From assembly GCA_016783065.1 (NCBI GenBank), contig JADHXI010000016.1:1-34796 (forward strand): a stretch of 34,796 nt of DNA. Reading direction: 5' to 3'. Of the stretch, positions 28,635 through 33,755 are shown piece after piece (positions within the stretch are counted from its first letter, which is position 1; every line of letters begins with the position of its first letter). Source of the stretch: Desulfobacteraceae bacterium. Its GTDB lineage: Bacteria; Desulfobacterota; DSM-4660; Desulfatiglandales; Desulfatiglandaceae. Position numbers and translations under genes: made by a program. The notes beneath the pieces were generated by a model. The model made no database searches, had not been told where the DNA came from, and saw nothing but the letters and a program-made list of their open reading frames with translations.

Positions 28635-28814
28635 TGCCATTCACCTCCTATGATAATGGCTTTCCTTTCAGTTCTCGCACCGCCACGCGGGGCGGGTGCA
28701 GGGGGTGATAAAAACGTATTTTATCTGACATGAGAATATGGGAAACCCCTCTCATGTGTCAAGGGCAAACAGGCAACGGGACAGGCAATACAAAAGGCCC
28801 CACTCCGGCTATTA

Positions 28815-28993
28815 GGGCTTGCGCAAAAATAACTTCGCAGAATTGGCACCCAGATTTGGGTCAGATTTGGCTGCGCCGATTGAGCAAAACCACAGAAATA
28901 GTAGTACTATTTAGAGGATTTTGCGATTGAGGCGCGACTGAAGATGACTTGAAGATGGGATGCGAAAATGTAAAGTTATTTTTGCGTAAGTCC
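28815..28993. mobile_element. MITE-like element 1: 179-bp full-length imperfect palindrome with TTA flanks
   Basis: The left end GGGCTTGCGCAAAAATAACT is matched inversely by the right end (GGACTTACGCAAAAATAACT read from the other strand), 18 of 20 identical. The two 89-nt halves align without gaps along their whole length around a centre AAATAGTA-G-TACTATTT at 28904. TTA stands on both sides (28812-28814 and 28994-28996), as expected for a 3-bp target duplication of the TNA kind made by some IS5-group transposases. No ORF is inside, so it would be moved in trans. Confidence 0.75.
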
Positions 28994-28996
28994 TTA

Positions 28997-29140
28997 GGAG
29001 GCTGTCCTAGAATGAGATAGTTTTTTCAAGATCAAGGAAGGCGGAAATTATAACCACAGGAATACATTAAAGTATTTCGAGGATTATAATTTGAGTTTGA
29101 CGCAGAGATTGGGAAAAATAGCCATTCTCGGACAGCCTCC
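28997..29140. mobile_element. MITE-like element 2: 144-bp full-length imperfect palindrome with TA flanks
   Basis: Ends GGAGGCTGTCC (28997-29007) and GGACAGCCTCC (29130-29140) are perfect inverted repeats followed by AGAATG/CATTCT. The two 72-nt halves pair without gaps, including AAATTATAA / TTATAATTT and a central ...TTAA region. TA lies on each side (28995-28996, 29141-29142), as in IS630/mariner-type targets. It abuts element 1. Its right end completes the TAG stop of the neighbouring gene. Confidence 0.75.
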
Positions 29141-29871
29141 TAGTATGAATCCATAATCTTCTGATAGGTTCCATCCTGTTTGATTTTGGCCAGCCCTTCA
29201 TCTAGCTTATGGGCATAATATTGGCTCTTGGGATCCTTTCTTGAAAAGGCCAAAAAAATAGGTGTGGTCTCATTTTGAAATGCCATCTCTATCTTATCTT
29301 CAAGGCCCAATTCCTTAAGCAGGACAGCGGCAGTCTTATCATAAATGATCGTCGCATCAATTCGCCCCACAGACAGCTTCTTGAGGTTGGTCTTTTCGGA
29401 TTTGGAAACCTCTTTAATAATGTTTCCCTTCTCAACCGCCCCCAAAAAATGATCCCCGTAGCCGTAGCCAAGCACAACGCCGACTTTTTCTTTATTCACC
29501 AATTCATCCCTGTTTTTCCCTTTCAACGGTTTTGATTTATCTTGGTAATAGGCCGATACCGCATCATAAAGAGGCGTGTTGCCCAAAACGTATTTCTTTT
29601 TGCTTTCTTCATCCAAGGGAACATTGAATCCGCCCAGCAGGTCCCCCCATTCAACCAGTTTTAAGATCCGATTATAGGGCAGCACCTTAAACGTCACATC
29701 GATTCCCACACGCTTAAAGGCTGCTGCTATGATTTCGTTTGCCAGACCGGTTCCATCCGCTCTTGCGTAAGGGACCCAGTCATCTTCGGCCCCAAGTGTA
29801 ATGGTCTCTCCGTAGGACGACGATACAGACACACACAGCACCATAAACATTCCGATTATTGTCTTCTTCAT
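29140..29871 (-). CDS. Periplasmic substrate-binding protein, SBP_bac_3-like
   Basis: About 243 residues from the ATG at 29871, preceded by GGGGGA; the frame is open further but without a ribosome site. A signal peptide (TIIGMFMVLCVSVSSSYG) leads into a family-3 binding domain: ITLGAEDDWVPYARADGTGLANEIIAAAFKRVGIDVTF, then YNRILKLVEWGDLLGGF and the closing KIKQDGTYQKIMDSY. This resembles polar amino-acid binding proteins, but no ABC permease or ATPase gene adjoins it. It may serve a distant transporter or a sensor. The stop TAG is formed from the TA target and first G of MITE-like element 2, so the C-terminus may have been shortened by a few residues. The ligand is unknown. Confidence 0.85.
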   Translation of the reverse strand: MKKTIIGMFMVLCVSVSSSYGETITLGAEDDWVPYARADGTGLANEIIAAAFKRVGIDVTFKVLPYNRILKLVEWGDLLGGFNVPLDEESKKKYVLGNTPLYDAVSAYYQDKSKPLKGKNRDELVNKEKVGVVLGYGYGDHFLGAVEKGNIIKEVSKSEKTNLKKLSVGRIDATIIYDKTAAVLLKELGLEDKIEMAFQNETTPIFLAFSRKDPKSQYYAHKLDEGLAKIKQDGTYQKIMDSY

Positions 29872-30002
29872 CTTTTTCCCCCGCCGGAAACCTTTGAATT
29901 CATATGTTTCTCCCAAAACCGTCATGATACCCCTGTTCATAAGGTTGCCAAAATAATTTTACCCTAATTCGTATCCATTTGTCCATTTCAGCACAAAAAC
30001 CC

Positions 30003-30053
30003 TTGACTTTCTGGTCTGGTCTGGTCAGACTAAGTATAACGGAGGTGATGGTT
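30003..30053 (+). promoter_or_regulatory. Leader with operator-like repeats of the Phd/PIN toxin-antitoxin pair
   Basis: TTGACT (30003-30008) is followed by three tandem CTGGT units (30011-30025) that run into the palindrome GTCTG-gt-CAGAC (30019-30030), then TATAAC (30035-30040) and GGAGG eight bases before the antitoxin ATG. Phd-type antitoxins repress their own promoter through such palindromes. The TTGACT/TATAAC spacing (26 nt) is too long for a standard sigma-70 promoter, so the exact promoter elements are unclear. Confidence 0.45.
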
Positions 30054-30293
30054 ATGCTCATAACCAATATTTCAGAGGCAAAGGCCCAGCTATCGGCCCT
30101 TATTGAGAAGGTCATGTCCGGGCAAGAGGTGATCATTGGTAAAGCAGGGAAGCCCGTCGCAAAATTAGTGCGCTATGAGCTAAACGAGAAACCGCGCCGG
30201 CCCGGCGCTCTAAGAGGGAAAATCAAAATCGCCGATGATTTTGACGAACTGCCGAAGGATATTGCCAAAGCGTTCGGGATGGTGGACGAATGA
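30054..30293 (+). CDS. Phd/YefM-family antitoxin
   Basis: A 79-residue antitoxin starting at ATG 30054 with GGAGG eight bases upstream. The N-terminal MLITNISEAKAQLSALIEKV and EVIIGKAGKPVAKLVRYE are the Phd/YefM DNA-binding fold; the tail (LRGKIKIADDFDELPKDIAKAF) is the usual toxin-neutralising helix. Its stop overlaps the toxin start by 4 nt (ATGA), giving translational coupling. It should bind the PIN toxin and, with it, repress the shared promoter. Confidence 0.92.
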   Translation: MLITNISEAKAQLSALIEKVMSGQEVIIGKAGKPVAKLVRYELNEKPRRPGALRGKIKIADDFDELPKDIAKAFGMVDE

Positions 30294-30667
30294 ACCTCTT
30301 GCTTGATACACATGTCCTCTTATGGTGGCTTGATGATCACCCAACCCTTTCCAAGAAAACAAAAGCGACAATCGCAGACGGGAAAAATCCGGTTTTTGTC
30401 AGTGCTGTTGTTATTTGGGAAATAATGATCAAGCAAGCATTGGGAAAGCTGGAAATTCCCCGAAATTTTCGGGGGGTGTTAGACAACCAGCCCTTTGAGA
30501 TGTTGGATATCACAGTCGAACACGCGCACGCGGTCGGGGACCTTCCTGCATATCACCGAGACCCGTTTGACAGGATGATTGTAGCCCAGGCGAAAGTGGA
30601 ACGTCTTACGCTTGTGACACGTGATATTCGTTTAAAGAAATACAAAATCCCACTTATCACGGCCTGA
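30290..30667 (+). CDS. PIN-domain (VapC-like) RNase toxin
   Basis: A 125-residue PIN-domain toxin overlapping the antitoxin gene by 4 nt. Acidic metal ligands of the PIN active site are all visible: D6 (LLLDTHVLLWWL), E44 (VSAVVIWEIMIKQ), D91/D94 (HRDPFDRMIVAQA) and D112 (LVTRDIRLKKY). VapC-type toxins cleave RNA, often tRNA or rRNA, when freed from the antitoxin. The THVLLWWL type pairs typically with Phd antitoxins, as here. Nothing suggests inactivation. Confidence 0.92.
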   Translation: MNLLLDTHVLLWWLDDHPTLSKKTKATIADGKNPVFVSAVVIWEIMIKQALGKLEIPRNFRGVLDNQPFEMLDITVEHAHAVGDLPAYHRDPFDRMIVAQAKVERLTLVTRDIRLKKYKIPLITA

Positions 30668-30823: not shown

Positions 30824-31507
30824 TCATGTCAATATATTACCTCTGCGCTCTCTGGGAGCTCTGTGAGAAATCCGACTTCCGGAAAAGCACATGGAAAAAG
30901 AAATTGTATCAAAGTGGTAATAAGTCAACAAAGTCAACAACGTCCCGGAAATCGCATTTGCATCCCTGTCACCCCGACCAGGATTGTCATTCCACGAAAT
31001 TATTTTCAGGCTAGCCAACCCAGCCAAAGACACGGACTGTATTTCAAGGAGGGGTTTTGCCCTCATTTTTATGGTAATCGAAGCCTGATGAGTTTCCTCG
31101 AATCCCTCAGTACTCATTTCGAAGCCGTCGTCAGGTGGCCAAAAAATACGCTCGTCCGGCCCTGCGATTGGCCCAAATGGGATTATATCAACCGGGAAGT
31201 TGCCTTTGCCTTTGTACAGAAGCCTTTGAGCTTTCTTTTCGTCAGGGCTAAATTTCTTAGTTGCAATTAGGCCTTCTCGGAGCCGAGCATAAGAATTCCA
31301 GTCTGACACCTGTACACCTAAATCAAAGTCTTCGGTGCGCCGCATAGTGGATACGCCATAGCACAGCTCCAAAATCCAATCTCTTGCCCGTGCGCCGACA
31401 GCGAAGAAGGGTACATTCAATGAGTCAGCAACATCAGCAATGACGTAAAAGAGCTCTACAGTAAGGTCATCAATCTTATCGGATAAATCGAGTAATTTCT
31501 TGTTCAT
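30824..31507 (-). CDS. AbiEii-like nucleotidyltransferase toxin, C-terminus probably lost and replaced
   Basis: A 227-residue ORF overlapping the AbiEi-like gene by 32 nt, as toxin and antitoxin genes of this type usually do. Residues 1-175 form a nucleotidyltransferase domain: FFAVGARARDWILELCYG with the acidic pair in TEDFDLGVQV, then NFPVDIIPFG and SLAGLASLKIISWNDNPGRGDRD. Related toxins as I recall continue with a helical domain of about 100 residues after this point. Here the frame instead enters GGGACGTTGTTGACTTTG (30929-30946) and an intergenic-type repeat, giving about 50 residues that look random (TYYHFDTISFSMCFSGSR). The toxin is therefore probably truncated and may be inactive. If intact enzymes are the guide, it would transfer nucleotides to tRNA or proteins. 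Confidence 0.72.
   Translation of the reverse strand: MNKKLLDLSDKIDDLTVELFYVIADVADSLNVPFFAVGARARDWILELCYGVSTMRRTEDFDLGVQVSDWNSYARLREGLIATKKFSPDEKKAQRLLYKGKGNFPVDIIPFGPIAGPDERIFWPPDDGFEMSTEGFEETHQASITIKMRAKPLLEIQSVSLAGLASLKIISWNDNPGRGDRDANAISGTLLTLLTYYHFDTISFSMCFSGSRISHRAPRERRGNILT
30929..30946 (-). repeat. REP/RAYT-type boundary motif, inverted copy within the toxin 3' end
   Basis: On the minus strand GGGACGTTGTTGACTTTG, identical over 18 nt to 32865-32882 in the opposite orientation. On the plus strand it is preceded by a partial tandem copy (AAGTCAACA twice, about 30923-30939). The core GGACGTT also forms both ends of the decayed RAYT element at 33755-34275. Confidence 0.7.
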
Positions 31508-32522
31508 AGATAATCTCTGCAGTTTCTATATTTCTTGCGTCACCTGTAGCTAATAGGTCCGCATAAATCAAAATAGGGTGCACCAAATCATGATGTGTAT
31601 TGTCAAGATGTGGCCAGTCGCTAGTGAAATTCCAGAATGGTTTTAGTATCTCAATATTACCATTAGGGTCTTTCCTGAGCTTGAGCGTCAGCATTAATTT
31701 TCCAGGTTTTTCTCTCGTATAAATGGTCACGGTTTGTGGTTTCAGATATTTTGTCAATTTGGCTGCTGCGATTTCCCCTCCCCAATAGGCTCCGAAATTC
31801 GCTAGCTCAGTGTTCTTCAACAGGTTAGTGTCAGTAGTCATGTAGGTTCCCAACAATCTTTTTGGCCTCAACCGTTCCGGATACGCGTTCACCCATCGCG
31901 CCAGCAAATTCTCCTTATTAACCAGGCGACGCCCGCGTTTTCCCAAGTCAATTAAATAACCCCTCTGTCTTAAGTCAACCACGACCCAATTGATAGTACC
32001 CAATGCAACCTCAGCCACTTTGGCGATTTCCCGATATGGGGCGTCTTCTAGACCCGGTTTGCATAGAAGAGCAAAGACTACCTGTAGGCCTGTGGGTTGG
32101 AACGCACGGGTAGGATGAGCTTTGCGGTAATCGTCAATGGGTTTATCGCCCTTGATAAATACGAATAGAGGAGGCTCGTAGATATAGGCGTTACCCGCTG
32201 TATCAATGAATGGAATATTCATTTCCTTCAATTGCTCAGCTATTTGCGGTGTGATATATCTTGTAACAAGGAGTCTCCTTTCAGGGAATTTCCGCAGTTG
32301 GTGGACAACTCCCCCCAGGGTGGCTCGCGTAAACGTTTTTTTGATTTCGACTGCAAAATTCCATTTCAGGTCTTGCATGATTAGTCGGATTCGTGCGTCT
32401 GGCCTGGGGGTATCTTTGTGGATATTAGGTTCAAACTCCACGATAGCAGTTAGGCCGGTTTTATTTTGAAGCATCCCCAATGCTTTTTGCAGGATATCTC
32501 TTTCTGTGAGCTCATTTTCCAT
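31476..32522 (-). CDS. AbiEi-family antitoxin/transcriptional regulator (type IV toxin-antitoxin)
   Basis: About 348 residues from the ATG at 32522, chosen because AGGTGA lies eight bases upstream; a GTG four codons earlier is possible. The N-terminal part (about 35-115) resembles a PD-(D/E)xK-like fold, with RPDARIRL (D42) and FAVEIKK (E59, K61), followed by IPFIDTAGNAYIYEPPLFVFIKG. A winged helix comes next (FQPTGLQVVFALLCKPGLED, YREIAKVAEVALGTINWVV), then a C-terminal domain ending HPILIYADLLATGDARNIETAEIIYE. This is the layout of proteins paired with AbiEii-like nucleotidyltransferases. AbiEi proteins repress their own promoter by binding inverted repeats. A perfect long palindrome lies 17 nt upstream of this start. 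Confidence 0.85.
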   Translation of the reverse strand: MENELTERDILQKALGMLQNKTGLTAIVEFEPNIHKDTPRPDARIRLIMQDLKWNFAVEIKKTFTRATLGGVVHQLRKFPERRLLVTRYITPQIAEQLKEMNIPFIDTAGNAYIYEPPLFVFIKGDKPIDDYRKAHPTRAFQPTGLQVVFALLCKPGLEDAPYREIAKVAEVALGTINWVVVDLRQRGYLIDLGKRGRRLVNKENLLARWVNAYPERLRPKRLLGTYMTTDTNLLKNTELANFGAYWGGEIAAAKLTKYLKPQTVTIYTREKPGKLMLTLKLRKDPNGNIEILKPFWNFTSDWPHLDNTHHDLVHPILIYADLLATGDARNIETAEIIYEQEITRFIR

Positions 32523-32538
32523 TCTACTTTTCACCTGG

Positions 32539-32595
32539 TTCGTACATTATATTGCTATGTTCATTTTTCATGAACATAGCAATATAATGTACGAA
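32539..32595. promoter_or_regulatory. Perfect 57-bp palindrome (26-bp arms) upstream of the AbiEi-like gene
   Basis: Arms 32539-32564 and 32570-32595 are exact inverted copies of one another around a TTTTC loop. The inner core is GTTCAT-ttttc-ATGAAC and the outer ends TTCGTACA/TGTACGAA. It covers the region just before the ribosome site, so it could act as an operator for AbiEi autorepression, as an RNA hairpin in the leader, or both. AT-rich surroundings (32596-32820) hold further half-sites. Confidence 0.85.
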
Positions 32596-33014: not shown

Positions 33015-33755
33015 ATGCCCTATACCCATCTTACAGAAAATGAGAGATATGTCATCAGTCATTTAAAGGTTGCCGGCTTTACCCTGCGAGAGATCGCTCG
33101 AAGGATCAAACGACACCATACGACCGTCAGCAGGGAACTCAAGCGAAATGACGACCCAGTGTACAAGGATACCGTTTATTGGTATGACTGGACTCATCCC
33201 GAAGCACTTAAGCGCCAACACAAAGCGCGGCATCAATGTCGTCGATCCAATAAGCGTTTATTCGACTACGTAGAACGTAAACTCAGAGACGATTGGTCTC
33301 CGGAATTAATTGCAGAAAAACTAAAGATTGACTATCCAGATGATGATGAAATGCGTGTCAGCCATGAAACCATTTACCGATGGATCTATTTAGACGCAAA
33401 TGGAGGTGGCACACTTTATCACCATTTACGGCGGAAACGAAAAAAACGCCGCAGACAAAAGCGATACGGATCGGGAAGACGATTCATACCGGGCCGGGTC
33501 AGTATCTCCGAACGCCCTGCCATCGTAGAGACCCGTGAACGATTTGGCGACTGGGAAGGAGATACAATTGAAGGCAAAAAGAGCACTGGATATATGGTCA
33601 CCCATGTCGAACGCAAAAGCCGCTACTTGATAGCCGCCAAACTTCTTGACAAAAAGGCAGAATCGGTCACGTTAAAAAGTATCAAAGCCTTCTGGCGCAT
33701 TTCAAAAAAGATGCGGAAAACATTGACCGTTGACAATGGCAAAGAATTTGGATAG
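33015..33755 (+). pseudogene. IS30-family transposase, 3'-truncated
   Basis: A 246-codon frame with AGAAGG before its ATG. The N-terminal helix-turn-helix (YVISHLKVAGFTLREIARRI, HHTTVSRELKRN) and the first catalytic Asp in RERFGDWEGDTIEGK are present, as is the second in LTVDNGKEF. Family members normally continue for some 80-100 more residues (after VDNGKEF) to the third catalytic acid. Here the frame ends at once in a TAG, and the sequence switches to the GGGGGACGTT end of the RAYT element. The third acidic residue and the right end of the IS are therefore missing and the enzyme is dead. Transposition of the RAYT element into the IS is the simplest cause. Confidence 0.88.

Follow-up and report, generated by a model that had tools for sequence, protein, structure and literature searches.

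Two abutting palindromic elements in a Desulfobacteraceae genome as probable products of one hairpin core with exchangeable ends

Non-autonomous transposons are grouped by their ends, and their fate is regarded as bound to that of a single transposase. Chunjie of Geobacter uraniireducens (PMC10969869) and BrickBuilt of Porphyromonas gingivalis (PMC4596501) are short, non-coding, multicopy repeats without a transposase gene, bounded by inverted ends and target duplications, and the same properties are found in two palindromes that lie end to end in the stretch of Desulfobacteraceae DNA analysed here (the window, 34,796 nucleotides). For BrickBuilt, the involvement of multiple transposases has merely been suggested, on the basis of variable flanks (PMC4596501), and this suggestion is the closest prior remark in the literature consulted to the observations presented below.

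The two palindromes, referred to as A and B, are placed between the 3' end of an SBP_bac_3 gene and the start region of a YfdX gene, both on the minus strand, and are laid out as follows:

28812 to 28814, unstranded: left TTA flank of A, a 3-bp target duplication of type TWA
28815 to 28993, unstranded: element A, a 179-bp imperfect palindrome with ends GGGCTTGCGCAAAAATAACTT / AAGTTATTTTTGCGTAAGTCC
28888 to 28920, minus strand: conserved core hairpin of A, minus-strand sequence AATCCTCTAAATAGTACTACTATTTCTGTGGTT
28994 to 28996, unstranded: right TTA flank of A, whose final two bases (28995-28996) are the left TA flank of B
28997 to 29140, unstranded: element B, a 144-bp imperfect palindrome with ends GGAGGCTGTCCTAGAATG / CATTCTCGGACAGCCTCC
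28997 to 29014, plus strand: left tip of B, with similarity to the termini of an IS1182-family element (relative G021)
29052 to 29085, minus strand: conserved core hairpin of B, minus-strand sequence AATCCTCGAAATACTTTAATGTATTCCTGTGGTT
29123 to 29140, minus strand: right tip of B, an inverted copy of the left tip
29140 to 29142, minus strand: TAG stop codon of the neighbouring SBP_bac_3 gene, formed by the last base of B together with its TA flank
29141 to 29142, unstranded: right TA flank of B

This arrangement of abutting 179-bp and 144-bp palindromes with TTA and TA flanks is exact to the base as described in an earlier note on this DNA. That each is a gap-free palindrome holds only in an imperfect sense: 56 of 89 gap-free positions pair in A (mean 22 and maximum 36 in 2000 shuffles) and 42 of 72 in B (shuffles: mean 18, maximum 31), but the inner arms of both include long unpaired blocks, the positions of which are conserved among copies. 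Among the palindromes of the window with 70-bp arms, A and B are in the best three, the third being a hairpin at 32566, and as single DNA strands both fold much more stably than shuffled sequences, with z-scores of -7.6 for A and -7.1 for B. Terminal inverted repeats are present in both and a transposase gene in neither, with the listed open reading frames of at least 80 aa overlapping at most the last base of B; the MITE-like nature ascribed to them earlier is borne out.

Both elements are indeed multicopy rather than single-copy in the host genome as searched (3.69 Mb in 208 contigs, 72% complete). Element A has about 25 further full or near-full copies with identities of 84-96%, and B has at least 10 on other contigs with identities of 98-100%, a degree of similarity that would indicate recent movement; several of the B copies terminate at contig ends, as expected for near-identical repeats. 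The search with B also returned many partial matches confined to its positions 32-124, which belong to elements with quite different ends, and the centres of A and B are found to be one motif, AATCCTC(N)AAATA(N...N)TATT(Y)CTGYGGTT. The corresponding core pattern matches 71 times in the host genome, with none for the reversed control, and is carried by 24 of the 247 phylum genomes scanned, in up to 248 copies, the control being absent from all of them. Among the matches listed, it is further found in upwards of 113 stretches of GTDB contigs, almost all of them from Desulfobacterota, where its invariance is partly by construction, since the set outside the host genome was collected by the core pattern itself. 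A and B are two members of one modular superfamily: the earlier view of two different elements stands as far as their ends are concerned but not in the sense of unrelated MITEs, the core being common to both. Phage and plasmid origins were considered and rejected, as neither a match among 2.9 million viral contigs nor a plasmid match was found.

The core carries at least seven end types, A to G plus rarer ones, and the tips of the seven families read:

Tip family A: GGGCTTGCGCAAAAATAA
Tip family B: GGAGGCTGTCCGAGAATG
Tip family C: GAGACCTTTGCAAAACG
Tip family D: GTGTCTGAACGAAAACTG
Tip family E: GTGTCCATCCATAAATGG
Tip family F: GAGCCAGTTTCAAAACG
Tip family G: GAAGCCATCTCAAAATTG

Elements of types B to G are 141-144 bp long without insertions, with the core located 57-58 and 56-57 bp from the two ends, and those of type A are 179 bp long, with the core 76 and 75 bp from the ends; optional hairpins are seen at fixed places in B copies and in C copies. 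C-type ends with 5-bp duplications also flank unrelated palindromes: at three loci of relative G082 (L241, L238 and L242) they enclose an unrelated GTCATTCCGG...CCGGAATGAC palindromic repeat, so that hairpins of several kinds are moved by a single end type. At the other extreme of size, five minimal A-type elements of 42 bp (L279, L282, L285, L288 and L290), flanked by TTA/TAA, consist of little beyond the two ends and probably arose by deletion across the hairpin, between direct repeats of ATTTTYGC. A relation to integron attC sites was also considered and rejected: GCATAAC-like ends occur in a few distant copies (L149, L179), where they are ordinary long inverted ends, and such motifs are absent from the window elements A and B.

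The length of a target duplication is set by how the transposase cuts. We counted exact flanking direct repeats for each tip family and derived the expectation from swapped flanks. A 5-bp duplication flanks 37 of 60 C copies (0.03 expected), a 4-bp one 10 of 18 F copies (0.12 expected) and a 6-bp one 9 of 24 D and E copies taken together (0.6 expected). For family A, 23 of 30 copies have an identical TWA on both sides, against an expectation of 11.9 that is high since the site is restricted; families B and G show a constant TA and nothing longer, which is compatible either with a duplication or with a fixed end base pair. Because the lengths differ among tip families (about 2, 3, 4, 5 and 6 bp), several transposases must be involved. 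In the window itself, A and B have two different end types, with a 3-bp TNA-type site for A and a TA site for B, and so call for two transposases, as the earlier note had suggested.

Its assignment of these two transposases to known families fared less evenly. We looked for autonomous partners with C-type and A-type ends, MITE interiors excluded, and among PF01609 transposases in 99 genomes, and the complete elements that emerged have only B-like (IS1182) and C/F-like ends. The former is a complete 1614-bp element in relative G021 (L266:106-1719) with ends TAGGAGCCTGTCG and a 456-aa IS1182 transposase (390 bits at a cut-off of 270); its ends TAGGAGCCTGTCGGA agree with the B ends TAGGAGGCTGTCCGAG (CTAG-like sites) at 13 of 15 bases, and a B-type end adjoins it at the same TA. 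The TA site of B is consistent with the proposed IS630/mariner-like origin, but its ends resemble IS1182, and no IS630/mariner link was seen among the PF01609-type transposases searched. For A, the 3-bp TNA-type duplication fits the proposed IS5-like mobilization; neither A nor C ends were found with a transposase gene in 118 genomes, in a setting where insertion sequences assemble poorly in metagenome-assembled genomes. The C/F-like element is a complete 1531-bp one in G089 (L268) with ends GAGCCTCTTGCAAAACT, and its transposase is IS5/IS1182-like, below naming cut-offs. Also adjoining the IS1182 element of G021 is a third palindrome (L266:1717-1875) with ends TAGGAGCCTGTCGGA and the different core CGAGGAATGAGACGTACAATAGAAGTACGCCGCAGTGACGAGG, which is another core on the same end type.

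Building on the directly observed copies, core, spacing, duplication lengths and incongruence between tips and interiors, we propose that A and B are non-autonomous MITE-like transposons in which one conserved hairpin chassis is combined with exchangeable tips and moved by several transposases, a reading to which we assign a probability of roughly 0.6. The same material could also stem from a single ancient MITE lineage in which the ends were altered one base at a time as the transposases of one superfamily (IS5/IS4/IS1182-like) diverged, in which case no tips were ever exchanged and the duplication lengths reflect the divergence of the enzymes. Such gradual co-divergence is in keeping with the constant element length and the tips being in register, with the likeness of the C and F tips (69% over 13 bp) and with the occurrence, in relatives, of elements that have B-like and C/F-like ends and carry IS1182- and IS5-like transposases. 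It sits poorly with the closest cross-tip pairs, in which the interiors are 95% (C/F), 89% (C/E) and 88% (B/E) identical and the outer 13 bp are unlike; in the B/E pairs only some 13-14 bp at either end differ, in register, yet the site is TA for B and 6 bp for E. A tree of the interiors, from which the outer 24 bp were removed and whose detail is weak, with 94 columns and some of them covarying, requires 17 changes of tip type where the minimum is 5. For type E the test rejects a single origin (p-AU 0.002), for B the outcome is borderline (0.07) and for C and F one origin is not rejected, so that slow divergence may account for some of the diversity of tips. One copy in the host genome (L053, contig C119 near 53128-53263) further joins a C-type left end to a B-type right end through the common core, a case that speaks against co-divergence with the proviso that it is the sole hybrid among 199 copies, comes from a fragmented assembly and may be an assembly error. 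With the joining of one tip type to unrelated interiors added to these, we consider co-divergence without exchange unlikely.

The core itself bears on two further readings. Across 70 diverged copies, a 22-pair structure retains 86.7% standard pairs, compared with 71.9% in shuffles, with double-change cells numbering 231 (73 in shuffles; 0/500) and a covariation score of 0.367, which falls to 0.150 or less once the partners are slid; it is important to note that the central motif is fixed by the search pattern and does not count as invariant, whereas the flanking stems and the loop-closing pair are free. Unpaired positions are conserved as well, namely a bulge on either side, mismatches of the T-Y and A-C kinds, and a 2x2 loop located 11-12 bases beyond the motif. 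Covarying stems and conserved unpaired positions could be expected of a structured RNA, be it a regulatory element or a small RNA, that is dispersed by transposition and retained because of what it does as RNA, and a role for the transcribed hairpins had been raised before; that suggestion is not supported. The elements match no Rfam family at the gathering score (the best hit, to a miRNA hairpin model, scores 29.8 bits where 90 are required), are oriented without bias relative to genes (43 versus 41) and contain no intrinsic-terminator-like site. An excess of one mismatch class, strong at first sight (89 versus 154 for G-U versus A-C), is lost once copies are collapsed (77 versus 97, p 0.15), and the argument from RNA asymmetry is accordingly dropped. 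We therefore hold conservation for an RNA function to be very improbable. Scarcely better placed is the view that A and B are two ordinary, unrelated MITEs side by side, their central likeness being convergence or chance and their stems kept by fold-back copying alone. Adjacent insertion, seen at 5 of 329 element sides, indeed does not clearly exceed what chance would give in intergenic DNA, and fold-back copying could produce compensatory changes without any function, but the core recurs 71 times in the genome against none for the control and is present in all tip families, with fixed mismatches that such copying should have erased. The conserved unpaired positions likewise argue against fold-back copying as the sole force.

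Under the proposed scheme of a retained chassis with exchangeable tips, the chassis would be the imperfect hairpin with its conserved central motif and the tips would comprise some 13-18 bp at each end, which would determine the transposase that moves the element while the chassis is kept. Tips may be swapped by recombination between related elements via the common core or subterminal parts, and a new tip on one arm could then be copied to the other upon fold-back of the palindrome, restoring matched ends. Least certain is what keeps the core: as folded DNA, a hairpin or cruciform with its conserved unpaired positions, it might help transposition, for instance by holding the two ends together, or it might instead make a long palindrome tolerable to the cell. 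More tentatively, and at somewhat less than even odds, we suggest that the element class as such is defined by its core and not by its ends, with the chassis surviving through repeated tip swapping that exploits whichever of several unrelated transposases is active, and with fold-back keeping the ends matched.

At the locus under study, one element is inserted within the target duplication of the other. Either order of insertion fits, the simplest being that A would have entered a TTA and B subsequently the TA of A's right duplication. In G003 the homologous SBP_bac_3 gene has no element after its stop codon, so that an empty site is seen for one side only. Several other features of the window were noted. 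An inverted repeat of 26 bp, perfect and with a 5-nt loop (32539-32595), lies immediately upstream of an AbiEi_2 antitoxin-type gene on the minus strand (31476-32534) and may serve as operator of an AbiE-type module; next after this gene comes a possible gene for a nucleotidyltransferase, without Pfam match (30824-31507). A Phd/YefM antitoxin and PIN toxin pair (29979-30667) adjoins the AbiEi-type gene, placing two toxin-antitoxin modules next to each other near A and B, and an open reading frame with an HTH_38 and a partial rve domain (33015-33755) looks like a shortened IS30-type transposase.

If the scheme of exchangeable tips is correct, an interior that is conserved while ends and duplication length change would amount to a generalist parasite, and the interior of a MITE could be its selected part. 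It would also provide a natural experiment on what transposases need beyond end sequences and would explain a large dispersed-repeat family of Desulfobacterota, with up to 248 copies per genome in our sample. No name for the family was found in Rfam or in the literature searched, IS databases being outside that scope, and a sequence search of the literature for tips and core returned only one incidental match.

Modularity in small bacterial repeats is known from the pneumococcal BOX repeats, which are built of the modules boxA, boxB and boxC; to our knowledge, their description does not extend to end types of differing duplication length around a common core. Rickettsia palindromic elements, Yersinia YAPL and ERIC (PMC2229807) are similar in being palindromic, about 105-170 bp long and able to form a long stem-loop when single-stranded; their sequences differ, and exchangeable ends or multiple duplication lengths are undescribed in the parts of that source consulted. 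The IS1182 element of G021 and element B are alike in their TAGGAG(G/C)CTGTC ends and TA site, but the former encodes a transposase, whereas B has neither coding sequence nor other similarity to it. Finally, whereas a MITE family, as described, has a single end type corresponding to one IS group, the elements presented here combine one interior with at least seven end types and differing duplication lengths.
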